From: Desulfobacterales bacterium GWB2_56_26
GTDB lineage: Bacteria; Desulfobacterota; Desulfobulbia; Desulfobulbales; Desulfocapsaceae
Direction of reading: 5' to 3'
Assembly: GCA_001799365.1 (NCBI GenBank)
Contig: MGTI01000202.1
Location: 191-41,457 of the forward strand
Length of the DNA stretch: 41,267 bases
The position numbers and the translations under genes are program-made. The notes beneath the pieces are model-generated. The model worked only from the letters and a program-made list of their open reading frames with translations. It searched no databases and was not told the origin of the DNA. Below are positions 3,353 through 17,834 of the stretch, in pieces; the first letter of the stretch is position 1, and every line of letters begins with the position of its first letter.

Positions 3353-5152
3353 ATGCAGGTTGCATTTTCCGGCATGTGCGAGATTCCCATGGTCATCAGA
3401 AAAACCGGCAGTGCCTTTATTGTTTTTATTTTCCTGCTCGTTATCTTCAAGACCGCCTGCTGCGCCGATTTCAAAAAGACCAAAATTGCCGTTTTAGATT
3501 TTGAGCTGCGCGGCGATTCTTTCACCACCAAGGATATGGGAGGAATCGTTGCTGAATGGTTCACCACGGCCATGGTCCAGGACGGTCGTTTCGAAGTGGT
3601 CGAACGAGCCCTGCTGAAGAAGATCGTGGAGGAACAGAAACTCGGCATGACCGGCCTGATCGACGAAAATAGTTCGGCTCAGCTGGGCAAGATTCTTGGC
3701 GTCAAGACCATCATTTCCGGCTCAGTTCTCCAATTCCAGGACACCATCGAGGTAAACGCCCGGATCATCAACGTCAACACCGGGTCGATAGTCGCGGCTG
3801 AGAATGTCCGCAGTAATACCAGTGAAAACCTGAAGAGTCTCATCGAGCTTCTGACCTCGAGGATTGTCAAGAATTTCCCGCTCACCGGCTACGTTGTGAA
3901 AAAGCGCGGCGATTCCGTGCTGATCGACCTGGGGGCCACCTCGGGGCTACAGCTCGGCATGGAATTCATCGTCTTCAAGGAAGGTGAAGTCATCAAGCAT
4001 CCGAAAACCGGCATCGTTCTCGACGTGGAACAAATCCATACCGGAAAAGTCAGGATCACCGAGATCAGCCTCAACACTGCGAATGCGGAAATACTCAGCG
4101 AAGAAGACGGCCGAAAGATTGCCGTCGGCCAACTGGTGCAAAATATCCGCAAACCGGAGAAGGTCGACGATAAGACCGAGCCACAGTCGCTGAGTCAGAA
4201 AGAGGAAAAACCACCAGAGCAACCGGTCAACAAGCAGGAACCGGAACCCGAAACGGTGCAGCCGCCGGAGCCGGTCAAACAGGAAGGCCCTGCCGGCGAA
4301 AGAGACAATCTGGCCTCCGGCGGCCAGGGTCCCCCGGTTCTGCCGCTCCCTCTCGGCACCTATATGATGGGCAGCAGTCGTTTTCCCGAGAAACCCGCCC
4401 ATTATGTAAAAATTGAAAAGCCCGTGCAGATGACGATGACCGAGATCACCTTCGACGATTATGAAAAATTCTGTCTTGAAGCCGGCTACCCCTTCCCGGA
4501 CGACTCCAGCTGGGGCAAGAAAGATCGACCGGTCATCAACGTCAACTGGCAGGATGCTCAGGCCTACGCAAAATGGCTGACCGAACAGACGGGGGTAACT
4601 TACCGGCTGCCTTTTGAAACGGAATGGGAGTGGGCGGCCGGAGCCGGTTCGGGGACCATCTATGCCTGGGGCAACTCGCTTATGCCGGACATGGCCAACT
4701 GCAAAGGCTGCGGCGCCTTGGGAGAAAAGCAGCAGACATCGCCGGTCAGGAGCTTTCAGCCCAATAAAACGGGCTTCTTCGATATGACCGGCAATGTCTG
4801 GGAGTGGGTGGAAGACTGCTGGGTTGAAAACTATGCGGGTGCCCCGGAAGACCAGTCACCCCGAATGTTTACCGGAAAATGCGGTAACTATACGATCCGC
4901 GGCGGCGCCTGGAACTCAAAGGAAAAGCAGATCTCGGTGACTTCCCGATTGGGAGTATGGGTCGATACCAAAAGCAATTACATAGGATTCAGGCTGGTTC
5001 GCGATCCGAACAGCTCCTCGCAGGCAAAAACCGATGCCCCTCCCCAAAGGGAAGGCGATACAACACTGCAGGCAGCCGCAGATCAAGGCAGGGACAATCT
5101 CTCCGCAGGAAAAACAATAACTCTGTCCTCAACATCGGAGAACGAAAAATAG
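3353..5152 (+). CDS. CsgG-like domain protein fused to a SUMF1/formylglycine-generating-enzyme-like domain
   Basis: N-terminal KIAVLDFELRGD...VAEWFTTAMVQDGRFEVVERALLKKIVEEQ...GVKTIISGSVLQF is CsgG-like; C-terminal YMMGS...TFDDYEKFC...PVINVNWQDAQAYAKWLTEQTG..YRLPFETEWEWAA...GFFDMTGNVWEWVEDCW..RGGAW...GFRLVRD is SUMF1-like. Confidence 0.85.
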   Translation: MQVAFSGMCEIPMVIRKTGSAFIVFIFLLVIFKTACCADFKKTKIAVLDFELRGDSFTTKDMGGIVAEWFTTAMVQDGRFEVVERALLKKIVEEQKLGMTGLIDENSSAQLGKILGVKTIISGSVLQFQDTIEVNARIINVNTGSIVAAENVRSNTSENLKSLIELLTSRIVKNFPLTGYVVKKRGDSVLIDLGATSGLQLGMEFIVFKEGEVIKHPKTGIVLDVEQIHTGKVRITEISLNTANAEILSEEDGRKIAVGQLVQNIRKPEKVDDKTEPQSLSQKEEKPPEQPVNKQEPEPETVQPPEPVKQEGPAGERDNLASGGQGPPVLPLPLGTYMMGSSRFPEKPAHYVKIEKPVQMTMTEITFDDYEKFCLEAGYPFPDDSSWGKKDRPVINVNWQDAQAYAKWLTEQTGVTYRLPFETEWEWAAGAGSGTIYAWGNSLMPDMANCKGCGALGEKQQTSPVRSFQPNKTGFFDMTGNVWEWVEDCWVENYAGAPEDQSPRMFTGKCGNYTIRGGAWNSKEKQISVTSRLGVWVDTKSNYIGFRLVRDPNSSSQAKTDAPPQREGDTTLQAAADQGRDNLSAGKTITLSSTSENEK

Positions 5153-11626: not shown

Positions 11627-12340
11627 TCAGTCTTCGGGGGTAAATTCACTGACATCCTGAGCATCCACGTCTACGACTTTAGGTTTTCCCGAGTAGTGGA
11701 TGGTACTCGCATCGGTCCCCGTCCCGGTCAATTTACCGGTAACATTGAGGCGGGCCGTGGTTGCATCGCTTGCCTTGATGCTGATATTTCCGGCGTTGAG
11801 TTCGGAACCGTCGAATTCGGCAGTATCCTGAATCTTGAGATCGAGCGATTTGACGGTACCGGAAATTTTCAGGGTAGTTGTCCCGTGGAGGTCGACCGAC
11901 AATTTGTCGTTCACGAACGAACTGCAGTCGACGACCAGTTCGCTGCTGCCGTCAGCGGTAATAGATGAGAGGTCTTTTTGGACAATATCGACAACAAAGG
12001 AATTTTCGGTGCAGTACGATTCGGTGGTTGAGAGGCTCAGCTTGTTATTCTTGACCACCGCGTCAATCAGGGGATGAAGATTCTTGTCGGCCGTGACAGC
12101 AACCTCGGACTTTGGCCCGCAACTGAGATTGACGACGAATACACCTTCAACTGCCAGATCCTTAAACGCCTCAAGGGAACGCTGTTCCTTGACGATTATG
12201 CCATTGCCTTTGCGGCAGTTGCCCCCGACAATTGTGCCGGTATTCACTTGATTGTTCACTCCGATGTTGATCTCGGTTGTTGCCCCAAGCAGGAAAACCA
12301 GGGCCGATCCGGCAAGCGCATACTTTATTCCGATATTCAT
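11627..12340 (-). CDS. DUF2807 / head-GIN-domain-like putative auto-transporter adhesin
   Basis: SLEAFKDLAVEGVFVVNLSCGPKSEVAVTADKNLHPLIDAVVKNNKLSLST...ITADGSSELVVD..., serial short beta-strand pattern typical of DUF2807. Confidence 0.75.
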   Translation of the reverse strand: MNIGIKYALAGSALVFLLGATTEINIGVNNQVNTGTIVGGNCRKGNGIIVKEQRSLEAFKDLAVEGVFVVNLSCGPKSEVAVTADKNLHPLIDAVVKNNKLSLSTTESYCTENSFVVDIVQKDLSSITADGSSELVVDCSSFVNDKLSVDLHGTTTLKISGTVKSLDLKIQDTAEFDGSELNAGNISIKASDATTARLNVTGKLTGTGTDASTIHYSGKPKVVDVDAQDVSEFTPED

Positions 12341-12738: not shown

Positions 12739-13530
12739 TTACATCTGCTTATTGGGTTCTCCGGATGCCGGGGGAGCTTCCGCGGCCACCTGTTTTTTGG
12801 CTTCAGAGAAGTCGTCAACCGAGGCGCCATGGCCTTCAACCTCCACAAATTCGCCAGCCCCGGGGATGGTAGCACCCAACAGCTCCTCGATATCCTTGAC
12901 ATTGACCCTGAACTTGACAAAGGCGTTCCCTTCTTCATCCCAGCCATAGTCGACGAGATCGGCGAGATAGGTGGTGGCCATGACTTTGACTTTGACCACA
13001 TCCGAACTCAACATATAGTTTTCAACCGTAGTCTGGCTCTCAAGGGTAAAACCCACCACCGTCTTCACCAGGTTTTTGTAACCGTCGAGTTCTGCCGCCC
13101 GCAGGGCTTTTATGGGGCCGGCGTTGGCCGGGGTGGAGGTGGCAAAGGCCACTCTCTTGAAAATCTTGCCTTTCAGGCTCAGCACCTGGCCATCGATATT
13201 GGTGATTTCATCGAGGCTTATCGACGCGGTGGCCTGGGCGATATCCTTCTCGGCATCATACACAACTTCATCGATTTTGATGCCCTGGATATCGGCACTC
13301 GTCTTGGATTCGGTCTTGCCGACAAAGCTTGCGGCAATCATATCGACCACTTCCTCGCTCGACCGTATCTTCAGGCCATATACCGACTCAACGATCGCAC
13401 GCTCGGCGAGCACCCTGGCGGCCCGGGTCGACATTATTTTCTTATTCCCGGCCCAGGCGACACCAACACTTCCCATCACTGCTATCAGCAGCACCACAAA
13501 AGCCCTATTCTTTGACAACATGGCTGTCAC
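12739..13530 (-). CDS. LPP20-like secreted protein
   Basis: Signal sequence ending in AWA; IKALRAAELDGYKNLVKTVVGFTLESQTTVENYMLSSDVVKVKV resembles LPP20-family proteins. Confidence 0.6.
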   Translation of the reverse strand: MTAMLSKNRAFVVLLIAVMGSVGVAWAGNKKIMSTRAARVLAERAIVESVYGLKIRSSEEVVDMIAASFVGKTESKTSADIQGIKIDEVVYDAEKDIAQATASISLDEITNIDGQVLSLKGKIFKRVAFATSTPANAGPIKALRAAELDGYKNLVKTVVGFTLESQTTVENYMLSSDVVKVKVMATTYLADLVDYGWDEEGNAFVKFRVNVKDIEELLGATIPGAGEFVEVEGHGASVDDFSEAKKQVAAEAPPASGEPNKQM

Positions 13531-13567: not shown

Positions 13568-15034
13568 TTACCACTCGTCAGCAGAGAGCTGACGTCCGAA
13601 TTTCTTTGGTTTTACGGCCGGAGCTGCGGCGGCCGGAGCCGCGGCGGAAGCTTGCTCGACCGCAGCTGCTTTCCTCTGGATCACCGGCGCAGGAGCTGCC
13701 TGAACCGCCTGTTGAGCCTGAGCAACCTCTTGAACGGGCTCTGCGGCCTGAACAACAGGAGCCTCGACAGCCTGTTGCTGCGCGACAGGTGGTGCCTCGA
13801 CCGGAGGTGCAGTTTTCTTCTGAGCCTTGGCGGTGGATTTTGGCTCTGGGACATCCTGGGCCTGCATCTGTCTAGCAAAATAATCGTTGATCTTTGTTCT
13901 TCTGGCGAGCACTTCGCGACTGACGGGAATGGTGAGATACAATTTGGTGAACAAGGCTTCGCTGATGCCCTTTTCATCACCGGCAAACGACGGGTCAAAG
14001 CTCCGTAATGCCGCCTGGGTATTGCTGTCCAGCCTGTTGTTGATGACAACATCATGGCCATGGAGAACCAGCCATTGCTGGGCCGCACCTATTCGATCAG
14101 CCCGCTCCATCCTATAGTAGGTAGCGGAAATGGAATCGAGGACAACCTTGTCCGGCTGGACATCGTCGCCCATTAGGCGCCAGTACGGCAGGGCCAGATA
14201 TTTGCCTATCATCTGGATCATGCTCACCTGGACCAGAACCCGCACCGCTTCGTGGCGGCCCTGGACTTTTTTGATAGAGCCTTTCAAACCGAAAGTCGGT
14301 CCGAATAAGGTAATGCCGACCTCCTCCTCGCGCAGGCCTTTATACACCTCCATGCTGTTGGTGGTGGTCATCCGCGGGATTCCCGCGAGCGTCTGGAAGT
14401 CCTTGAGATTGAAGTCGAGGGTTATCCTCGCCTTGCCCGTTTTTGAGGTATCTCCGTAACTTGCCCCGGCGGTTTCGGAAGGAAACCATTTGGGGGCGCC
14501 GGTAAATTCGGCTTCGACATCCAGGTTGGTACCCTCACCCCGGGTTTCCAGGCCACGATCGAATTCGGTAATGCCACCAGTGATAACCACGTCGGGGATA
14601 GTCTTGTTATCGAAGCTGCTGTATCCGGAAACCATCTGGTTCTGAATATAGGACGGGTTGTATTCGATGAAAATGATATTGCCACCGATGTTGTTGAGCG
14701 TGCTTTTCATTATCTCGGTGATGTTACGCTGGATCTCCCCACCGGTCGTTACCGAGGTTCCCGTTTCATCGGCAATGTCCTGACTCTGCACCTTCATGAG
14801 TCCCGTGTCATAAATCTGCGACATCAAACCGAGATCGATGAGTGCTTGTGAATAGGAAGTTACCTTTTCCACCGGCGCACTCTTTTCGAGCTGGACATCG
14901 ACATTCTTAGGATTCATATCGCCACAAGAGGACATAAGAACGAGCGCCAGGCCCAACAGGAAGCAGTTGACAGCGGTTTTTGATTCCCCGCCGCAAGCCA
15001 GCTGACGAGCATTCACAGTTTTGTTGAGTCTCAT
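13568..15034 (-). CDS. HfaB/CsgG-like outer-membrane lipoprotein with C-terminal peptidoglycan-binding-like segment
   Basis: Lipobox LVLMSSC; SAPVEKVTSYSQALIDLG...GGEIQRNITEIMKSTLNNIGGN...DVVITGGITEFD...ITLDFNLKDFQT...GRHEAVRVLVQVSMIQMIGKYLALPYWR is CsgG/HfaB-like. Tail is Ala/Pro/Gln-rich. ORF extends to 15088, but the start at 15034 fits better. Confidence 0.75.
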   Translation of the reverse strand: MRLNKTVNARQLACGGESKTAVNCFLLGLALVLMSSCGDMNPKNVDVQLEKSAPVEKVTSYSQALIDLGLMSQIYDTGLMKVQSQDIADETGTSVTTGGEIQRNITEIMKSTLNNIGGNIIFIEYNPSYIQNQMVSGYSSFDNKTIPDVVITGGITEFDRGLETRGEGTNLDVEAEFTGAPKWFPSETAGASYGDTSKTGKARITLDFNLKDFQTLAGIPRMTTTNSMEVYKGLREEEVGITLFGPTFGLKGSIKKVQGRHEAVRVLVQVSMIQMIGKYLALPYWRLMGDDVQPDKVVLDSISATYYRMERADRIGAAQQWLVLHGHDVVINNRLDSNTQAALRSFDPSFAGDEKGISEALFTKLYLTIPVSREVLARRTKINDYFARQMQAQDVPEPKSTAKAQKKTAPPVEAPPVAQQQAVEAPVVQAAEPVQEVAQAQQAVQAAPAPVIQRKAAAVEQASAAAPAAAAPAVKPKKFGRQLSADEW

Positions 15035-15084: not shown

Positions 15085-15423
15085 TCAATCTGAAATATTG
15101 GTCTTCGAACCTTTGCTCTGGTCGATAATGTAAATATCTCCCTTCACCTTGCTGCCGGCACCCAAGACCACGCTATTCATGTTGGCATCGCCTGACTTGC
15201 CGCCAATCTTGTCCTTATCGCCTTTTTTGGTGGCCGCTTTGCTCTTAGCATTCATAACGATGAACTTGATGTTTTGATCCCCTTTTCCTATCTCATCGTC
15301 CTTCGCTATCCCTTCATCGTCAAACTTGGAAATACCGTCATCCAGGTCGCCGCCAAAGGCTGCGCCCGATAAAAGAATCAAGGAGAGAGATAAGAGAAGG
15401 CTTAGAGTGATTCGAGTTTTCAT
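15085..15423 (-). CDS. Small secreted companion of the repeat protein (possible minor subunit/nucleator)
   Basis: Signal peptide MKTRITLSLLLSLSLILLSGAAFGG; C-terminal GDANMNSVVLGAGSKVKGDIYI echoes the ANMGSV repeat motif of the neighbouring gene. Confidence 0.6.
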   Translation of the reverse strand: MKTRITLSLLLSLSLILLSGAAFGGDLDDGISKFDDEGIAKDDEIGKGDQNIKFIVMNAKSKAATKKGDKDKIGGKSGDANMNSVVLGAGSKVKGDIYIIDQSKGSKTNISD

Positions 15424-15496: not shown

Positions 15497-15537
15497 GTCC
15501 CTCTTGACTCAGCGGTCATCCGTGAATCAAGAGGGAC
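15497..15537 (-). promoter_or_regulatory. Intercistronic stem-loop between repeat protein and downstream gene
   Basis: GTCCCTCTTGA...TCAAGAGGGAC, 11-bp perfect arms; no T-tract in the minus direction. Confidence 0.6.
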
Positions 15538-15556: not shown

Positions 15557-16738
15557 TTATTGTACCTGAACCGAGCCCATGCTCGCCTCATTGCCCTTGC
15601 CGATGGCGATGTTAGCCGCCTGCTTGACGTCTGAAGTATTGGTGATGACGCCGGTTTTGCCGACGGTGCCGCCCTTGATATCGACAGAGCCCATGCTGGC
15701 GGTATTGTTCTCGCCGATAGCGATATTTGCAGCCTGCTTAACGGTGGAGGTGTTGGTGACTTTGCCGTCCACCTTGGCATTCTGCATGTTTATCGAGCCC
15801 ATGTTGGCGGTATTGCCTTTGCCGATGGCGATGTTGGCAGCCTGCTCAACCGTGGATTTGTTCGTTACTACACCGGTTTTGCCGATCTCACCGCCCTTCA
15901 TGTTGACCGAACCCATATTAGCGGTGTTGTTCTCGCCGATGGCGATGTTGGCGGCCTGCTTGACTTGCGAATCATTGGTCAGTTTGCCGTCGACCTTGGC
16001 GTTTTTCATGTTGATCGAGCCCATATTGGCCTCGTTGCCTTTGCCGATGGCGATATTGGCGGCCTGCTCAACATTCGATTTGTTGGTGACCACACCGGTC
16101 TTGCCGATTGAGCCACCCTCCATGTTGACAGAGCCCATATTGGCTTTGTTGTTCTCGCCGATGGCGATATTGGCGGCTTGCTTGACTTTCGAATCGTTGG
16201 TCAGTTTGCCGTCGACCTTGGCGTTCTTCATGTTGATCGAGCCCATGTTGGCCTCGTTGCCCTTGCCGATGGCGATGTTGGCGGCCTGCTTGACATCGGA
16301 TTTGTTCGTTACCACACCGGTCTTGCCGATAGAGCCGCCCTGCATGTTGACAGAGCCCATGTTGGCCTTGTTGTTCTCGCCGATGGCGATGTTGGCGGCC
16401 TGCTCGACTTTCGAGTCATTGGTCAATTTGCCGTCGACCTTGGCGTTTTTCATGCTCACCGAGCCCATGTTGGCCTCGTTGCCCTTGCCGATGGCGATGT
16501 TGGCGGCCTGCTTGACATCGGATTTGTTCGTTACCACACCGGTCTTGCCGACAGTCGAATTTTTGATGTCGATAGATCCCATACTGGCCTTGTTGTTTTC
16601 ACCGATGGCGATGTTGGCAGCCTGCTCGACTTTGCTGTCGTTCGTAACCTTGCCATCGATCTTCGATGCGGCCCAACCGGTGGAAATACTCATTGCGACA
16701 GCCAATCCCAATGCACTTGCTAACAATCTTTTTTTCAT
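15557..16738 (-). CDS. Curlin-like alternating-repeat secreted protein (candidate amyloid/adhesin subunit)
   Basis: Start MKKRLLASALGLAVAMSISTGWAA (16738) with AGAAGAGGG upstream; ten tandem units with core QAANIAIGxxNxAxMGS. The upstream 58-codon extension of the ORF is probably not translated. Confidence 0.8.
   Translation of the reverse strand: MKKRLLASALGLAVAMSISTGWAASKIDGKVTNDSKVEQAANIAIGENNKASMGSIDIKNSTVGKTGVVTNKSDVKQAANIAIGKGNEANMGSVSMKNAKVDGKLTNDSKVEQAANIAIGENNKANMGSVNMQGGSIGKTGVVTNKSDVKQAANIAIGKGNEANMGSINMKNAKVDGKLTNDSKVKQAANIAIGENNKANMGSVNMEGGSIGKTGVVTNKSNVEQAANIAIGKGNEANMGSINMKNAKVDGKLTNDSQVKQAANIAIGENNTANMGSVNMKGGEIGKTGVVTNKSTVEQAANIAIGKGNTANMGSINMQNAKVDGKVTNTSTVKQAANIAIGENNTASMGSVDIKGGTVGKTGVITNTSDVKQAANIAIGKGNEASMGSVQVQ
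15560..16645 (-). repeat. Tandem repeat array: five A/B dyads of ~74 codons (38 + 36 aa)
   Basis: A units TN(D/T)SxVxQAANIAIGENNxAxMGS...GKTGVV alternate with B units TNKSxVxQAANIAIGKGNxANMGS..NAKVDGKL; the last B unit is truncated. Confidence 0.9.
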
Positions 16739-17834
16739 GACGTATGCCCTCTTCTGATGTTTTTTGATGTGTTGAACAAAACCTGCTTCTTCATTATAAC
16801 AGAATCCTTGTTTGCGCCTCCTCCTGTTGCAATGTTGAGATTTTGGCCATTTATCGGCAAAAAGACATCTTGTGTTGAATCCTCTTCCTGTAATATATAT
16901 GGGCATCGCCAATACTCACGTTGCTCATACCGACAGCCCCCGATGCCTTCCGGGCTAACTGTCTGGAACCTATTCCGACCGTTCCATCGCCACATCGATT
17001 TGCTGAACTCATTATAGCATCAATTGCTTTGCCTTTATCAAGGGCTATCGACAAATGAACAGCTGCCATTTCCTGAAAACGACTATCCCGAACGTATCAT
17101 GATCGATCAAAACATTCTCAAAAAAAAGTCCTAGTGAGCACTGATCTGTTTCCTATTAGTGACTGTGAGACCTCTGCAGGTTCAAAGAGATTCTTAAAAA
17201 AGTAATTTTTTTATGGCGTCGTTAATGTTTTTCTCTCAGCAAGACTTCGGAGATGTCGAGATTGCCCCTTATTTATTGACCGGACCCTCACTGGAGGAGA
17301 AGACCAATCTCTAACATTAACAACTATGGAAGTCAGTAATTCATCATTCCGCTGCAAGGCACCAGCCGCTTCCCGACGTAAATACACGGAGAGAGTAAAG
17401 GCTGTGAGCCAGAGGAGAGGTCCCAAAATGGCTGCCGATGAACACTGGAAGAGAGAAAAGACGAGCGGGAAAGACAGCAGAAACCACCTGCCCAAGGTTT
17501 CCGGAATATTTGCCTTACACTTTTTGCAAAGAAGAACCAGCAACATACCACCACCAAAACCTTGCAGTCTTTTCCGTGGGATAGGAAATTTATCTTAAGT
17601 ATGACAACTTAATGTAATGGGAAGATTATAATGCATCGCCCCCTCCACTTCAAGGAAGGCGAGGAAAAAGATCCGGAAGAAATCGGGAAAACATGATATT
17701 TTGCCTCCTTGCCTCCGAACCTCTTTCGGCCTTGTACGATCCTCATTATGAGTATTGTGATATGAACTGTAAAACGACACGCCGTCTCGGATACTTCCGT
17801 TTCGGTTCCACCACCCCTACAGAAGAATAGTGCC

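Follow-up and report, generated by a model that had tools for sequence, protein, structure and literature searches.

Curli and Fap are well-studied functional amyloids of Gram-negative bacteria, and the initial annotation of the DNA studied here, a 41,267-nucleotide stretch from Desulfobacterales bacterium GWB2_56_26 (the window), had compared one of its tandem-repeat proteins with the curlin repeats of the former. The question that this locus raises is whether that protein, which we call REP, is the subunit of a surface fibre and, if it is, what kind of fibre this would be. REP (15557..16738, minus strand) is an exported protein of 393 aa, recognised from its open reading frame and sequence, its AlphaFold2 (AF2) model, a unit HMM and homologues in the corresponding operons of other genomes. 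It begins with a Sec-type signal peptide (MKKRLLASALGLAVAMSISTGWA; 16670..16738, minus strand), read from the sequence, and the model has a pLDDT below 50 for residues 1-21. The unit array (15560..16657, minus strand), delimited by sequence, TRF and unit alignment, runs 38-36-38-36-38-36-38-36-38-32 aa, so that the strict A/B alternation of ten 38- and 36-aa units in five dyads described earlier holds, with the last unit shortened to 32 aa. The repeat analysis proposed at that time recovers the same dyad, with TRF giving a period of 222 bp (74 aa; 4.8 copies, 84% matches). A units carry GENN and a GKTG end that makes them longer by 2 aa, B units carry GKGN and NAKVDGK, and the final B unit ends flush with the C-terminus. 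The core that had been noted, QAANIAIG-x-x-N-x-A-x-M-G-S, is present in all ten units, and amino acid identity is 68-95% between A units, 83-94% between B units and 62-72% between A and B. C, P, F, W, Y, H and R do not occur in mature REP. An overlapping plus-strand frame (15579-16757, 392 aa) was taken as a mirror open frame and not a gene, and the idea of a conductive filament was set aside given that mature REP has no aromatic residue or cysteine.

Other genomes keep the array at the protein level with 8, 10 or 12 units, which excludes a chance origin. These numbers, found among the closest relatives in the copy-number comparison that had been suggested, correspond to the gain or loss of whole dyads and bear out the proposal that the array grew by dyad duplication. 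Between two genomes, units that occupy the same position are slightly closer to each other (0.82 nucleotide identity) than units of the same type elsewhere in the array (0.76), and the dyads therefore do not become homogenised over short times. Strict alternation is a property of REP that is not universal, with many distant relatives failing to alternate. When 822 distinct units are pooled over all loci, two Asn and two Gly are all but invariant (98-100%), and two Ala reach 89% and 94%; the Q of QAANIAIG is replaced by S or K in relatives.

The AF2 model of REP, built with 20 homologues, is a regular beta-solenoid (pLDDT 92.6, pTM 0.89) with one coil per unit and four to five short strands per coil. 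Given one coil per unit, A and B follow each other along the axis of the solenoid and do not form the two faces envisaged in the initial annotation. The same annotation had named disorder, a helical structure or membership of a non-amyloid repeat family as outcomes that would speak against it; we looked for all three and none occurred. Foldseek with the REP solenoid against solved structures gave no close match, only weak generic beta-helix matches with TM-scores below 0.3; the fold search against viral models likewise gave only weak generic beta-helix matches, and a PDB sequence search with the repeat found nothing. We have very little doubt that REP is a secreted solenoid. AlphaFold readily produces regular solenoids for near-perfect repeats, and the model is therefore no proof of polymerisation.

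In order 3' of REP and on the same strand are genes for SML, CSGG, an LPP20-like protein, C5 and a DUF2807 protein. The most informative of these is CSGG (13568..15034, minus strand; 488 aa), two genes downstream of REP, which models, Foldseek and alignments identify as a CsgG-like outer-membrane lipoprotein. Its AF2 model (81 sequences) has a pLDDT of 80.5, and the top 25 Foldseek matches are all CsgG (E down to 4.5e-10, probability 1.00, 11-14% identity), membrane-bound CsgG pore structures among them. Two long transmembrane beta-hairpins typical of the CsgG superfamily are predicted (AF2 strands at residues 149-176, 188-212, 218-243 and 247-257), and the N-terminal lipobox cysteine, C37, is conserved in at least 90% of the 81 sequences. 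From the model, CSGG almost certainly adopts the CsgG fold. It resembles CsgG in fold only, its sequence signal being at noise level: CSGG matched no Pfam or NCBIfam family, PF03783 (CsgG) gave no match to CSGG of the window and a noise-level E of 0.049 in one relative, and a PDB search with the pore profile returned only matches to a PG-binding-like domain and to low-complexity sequence. That PG-binding-like domain is C-terminal in CSGG, which also has a P/A/Q-rich low-complexity tail and a conserved KKFGRQLS-DEW end. Elsewhere in the window (3353-5152, plus strand) is a further protein, in which a CsgG-family N-terminal domain (PF03783, 60 bits) is joined to a sulfatase-modifying-factor (FGE) domain.

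The remaining operon members are smaller and, like CSGG, lie on the minus strand. SML (15085..15423; 112 aa) is an exported protein whose family occurs in 54 loci and whose C-terminal half, compared with the repeat-unit profile by hhalign, resembles half a unit (P 9e-5, probability 59%), making it a candidate nucleator, cap or adaptor. The exported LPP20-like protein (12739..13521; sub-threshold PF02169; family in 36 loci) and the exported DUF2807 (head GIN) protein (11627..12340; PF10988, E 1.1e-20; family in 32 loci) are conserved, as is C5 (12354..12659; 101 aa; family in 31 loci). C5 shows a weak CsgF C-terminal signature (PF10614), its sole recurrent Pfam match, found in 8 of 24 members with a best E of 0.0011, below the cut-off; we regard this sub-threshold match as a lead.

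A scan of genome contigs for CSGG loci gave 80 named loci, spread over Desulfobulbales and other Thermodesulfobacteriota, Desulfuromonadaceae, Geomonas, Nitrospirota, Methylococcales, Scalindua, Elusimicrobia and Campylobacterota. Where at least 1.5 kb lay upstream of CSGG, a same-strand repeat protein ended within 3 kb upstream in 57 of 69 loci, with a median gap of 513 bp; several other loci have the repeat protein downstream. In the 52 fully covered loci the repeat was found in 48, SML in 36, the LPP20-like protein in 25, and C5 and the DUF2807 protein in 21 each. When 25 genomes were searched with both queries, four had both, one had a divergent CSGG only and none had the repeat alone (Fisher p ~4e-4). 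The host genome has one CSGG copy, and the contigs that carry paralogous repeat genes show no second. Changes of phylum on the tree exceed the minimum needed, although a claim of transfer is weakened by bins and paralogues. Viral contigs contained no relative of the repeat or of CSGG, and plasmids had no repeat protein and matched CSGG only with two distant DUF4384 proteins. We found no paper describing the operon in a literature search that covered few subscription journals or preprints.

The form of the repeat gene differs in some of these lineages. In Methylococcales (L131 8424-9545, L132 8614-9545, L127 8840-9550) it consists of two or three tandem, near-identical 98-aa genes, each with two units, and the gene for a CsgG-like protein lies downstream; in Methylotuvimicrobium buryatense (L132) that protein terminates in DUF4384. 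Desulfobulbus and related loci (L102, L103-L110, L121, L126) have very divergent repeat proteins (~198 aa), which are hardly picked up with the unit profile.

Directly 3' of the REP stop is a strong hairpin (15497..15537, minus strand) with a stem of ~18 pairs and no T-run, identified by folding and by a position kept across loci. The 117-nt spacer after REP folds at -51.7 kcal/mol (z -7.2). Taken over 60 loci, the first 90 nt beyond the repeat gene give a median z of -3.5, with 60% below -3, compared with 4% after SML and 1% after CSGG (Mann-Whitney p 1e-15); the position is kept while the sequences differ. The hairpin is probably an mRNA stabiliser or attenuator, and its placement would be the arrangement expected where a structural subunit exceeds its export machinery.

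What the analysis shows is the content and order of the genes, their homology across phyla, the folds predicted for them and a conserved hairpin. From this we consider it likely that a curli-like surface fibre, built by a divergent curli-type (type VIII) system, has REP as its main structural subunit. Several lines of evidence lead to this reading: the CsgG fold of CSGG with its membrane hairpins, the linkage and co-occurrence of REP and CSGG, the regular solenoid, the change in copy number, the hairpin after the repeat gene only, the half unit in SML, the composition of mature REP and the precedent of the Hfa proteins considered below. Counted against it are the fold-only match of CSGG, the absence of known CsgE or CsgF in eight genomes and the lack of a second CSGG beside the paralogues. 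That the system operates like curli is a judgement from gene content, and CSGG belongs to the CsgG superfamily by fold; the repeat could be assigned to no named family in these searches. For the secretion route, polymerisation and surface role we infer the following. REP would cross the inner membrane by Sec and then, probably in an unfolded state, traverse the outer membrane by way of the CsgG-like pore encoded in the same operon; that the neighbouring CSGG is its exporter is highly probable. Outside the cell REP would fold into its solenoid, each coil with four to five short strands, and the open ends of the solenoid would let subunits stack end to end, and polymerisation into a fibre is in our view quite probable. 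Gain or loss of dyads would alter the length of REP and leave the fold intact, SML with its half unit would probably start, cap or tether the fibre, and the fibre may have a role in adhesion or biofilm formation.

The linkage could also have another meaning. REP might be a monomeric surface or periplasmic beta-solenoid, an adhesin or coat protein that CSGG does not export, with the two genes kept together by a shared function such as polysaccharide anchoring, as in the holdfast anchor of Caulobacter. Relatives with the CsgG fold do include proteins that are not involved in secretion (FlgT and LPHT-ring matches in Foldseek), and both the PG-binding-like domain of CSGG and the DUF2807 and LPP20-like proteins of the operon would suit such a function. 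We nevertheless think this unlikely, as the nearest structural matches of CSGG are to the secretion pore and its long membrane hairpins are kept, the repeat is its most constant partner, and the hairpin pattern suggests a product made in bulk.

If any known repeat is closer to REP in its core motif it is that of FapC, and REP might then be a Fap-type amyloid repeat, kin to FapB and FapC, served by a CsgG-like pore in place of FapF. FapC has the repeat motif N-hydrophobic-A-x-G-x-G-N and five short strands per layer (PMC12392863); REP shares that core, has a similar number of strands and a similar repeat length (36-38 compared with 38-39 aa). Aligned to the unit HMM, the three repeats of FapC in PDB 9nqd all fall into one register, and of 1000 shuffles 3, 15 and 19 did as well; hhalign of FapC against the unit profile gave P 0.0014. 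The hhalign probability was however only 18% with three FapC sequences, N/G/A-rich repeats easily match by composition, and FapC had no significant match in eight genomes, nor were FapC relatives found on plasmids. Fap proteins, moreover, mostly have three repeats with long linkers, whereas REP has ten contiguous coils. The similarity is only suggestive, and we hold the Fap reading to be improbable.

More doubtful still is the idea of a true curli (csg) system that has diverged strongly, in which the repeat would be a curlin with enlarged coils descended from CsgA. There is a CsgG fold in the operon, the N-x-S-x-V-x-Q of the window units recalls motif a of curlin (PMC10192328) and C5 has its weak CsgF signature. 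Curlin, however, has a ~23-aa unit that forms a two-strand beta-arch with a QX10Q core (PMC10192328), whereas the unit here is a multi-strand coil of 36 or 38 aa that lacks QX10Q and whose motif-a Q varies among relatives. PF07012 (curlin) was found in 0 of 18 genomes (the host and 17 relatives), with a positive E. coli control, and in a scan of REP also gave no match; CsgE (PF10627) and CsgF (PF10614) were absent in eight genomes; and curlin fragments scored near shuffles against the unit HMM in three of four cases. REP reaches 36 bits with the CsgE Pfam model, an artefact of weak repeat matches adding up with no passing stretch. The earlier comparison with curlin is apt at the level of the system, with a CsgG-fold gene and an exported beta-solenoid in the same cluster, and fails for the repeat itself. 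An ordinary pentapeptide-repeat protein or autotransporter-type beta-helix is extremely improbable, as the weak NCBIfam and Pfam pentapeptide matches in two relatives and the weak autotransporter matches in Foldseek are set against a period of 36-38 aa with no five-residue periodicity of the A(D/N)LXX kind, TM-scores below 0.3 at an rmsd of 13-25 Å and no translocator domain.

Returning to the curli-like fibre, the same coil is found in other proteins. Giant proteins of this coil, ~500-1508 aa, adjoin the operon in many genomes, and upstream of REP is a decayed 3' remnant of such a paralogue (16789..17093, minus strand), detected in two separate pieces by tblastn of giant proteins (E 3.6e-7). 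Remnants likewise lie upstream in G003, G004 and G007 (L025, L027 and L026), and the gene is intact at the corresponding place in L030 and L033. Host contig C83 encodes a second repeat protein of 13 units (L050 5604-7154), in which the one A/B break coincides with a direct repeat of 557 bp, exact over its length and at an offset of 552; this may be a recent duplication or an assembly error. Repeat units are fused to a subtilase in three genomes (L050 8893-10953, host C83; L028 12378-14222; L166 2041-3960), each with ECF sigma and anti-sigma genes ahead of it and oriented divergently from a repeat-protein gene. In two genomes a FecR-domain protein has two C-terminal repeat units (L053 8713-9597, host C14; L169 5065-5931) and sits beside a CHASE2/adenylate-cyclase-like gene. 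Together with the half unit in SML, the sequences of the giant proteins and the two kinds of fusion suggest that the coil is a docking module, and these paralogues could dock into or onto the fibre. A bolder and rather tentative reading is that we are dealing with an independent, unnamed class of extracellular fibre, present in several phyla. It would possess a solenoid repeat, a CsgG-fold pore, a small partner resembling the repeat and an accessory set of its own, and its coil would also dock enzymes (subtilase) or sensors (FecR) on the fibre.

If the curli-like reading is true, this would be a third Gram-negative combination of repeat and pore beside curli and Fap, invisible to Pfam and NCBIfam, and CsgG-type secretion would reach environmental groups (sulfate reducers, Nitrospirota and methanotrophs) in which little is known of the matrix of biofilms and aggregates. 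Coils this regular, free of aromatic residues and cysteine and known in natural fusions to enzymes, would also lend themselves to use as a programmable protein fibre. The fibre model can be tested in cultured hosts (Methylotuvimicrobium buryatense 5G, L132; Desulfobulbus elongatus, L110; and Desulfobulbus alkaliphilus).

Compared with known systems, the locus shares with curli and type VIII secretion a Sec-exported repeat solenoid, a CsgG-fold outer-membrane lipoprotein in the cluster, a variable number of repeats and a minor repeat-like partner; it differs in having no curlin repeat or recognisable CsgE or CsgF, a pore protein with an added PG-binding-like domain, and extra operon genes. With Fap (FapC, PDB 9nqd and 9u4u) the likeness is in the repeat, and the difference lies in the linker-free coils and the CsgG-like pore. 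The MafA lipoprotein of Neisseria (MafB secretion) is also a proposed CsgG-like outer-membrane lipoprotein, likened here by description only, and no repeat protein has been described with it. A MafA homologue has been reported in Desulfobulbus elongatus (PMC7738311), which also has the present system. In the HfaA-HfaB-HfaD holdfast anchor of Caulobacter, whose operon differs from the present one as far as is known and whose HfaA and HfaD are likened to REP by description only, a CsgG-like protein delivers amyloid-like proteins to the surface, HfaA and HfaD both needing HfaB to arrive there (PMC6707917).
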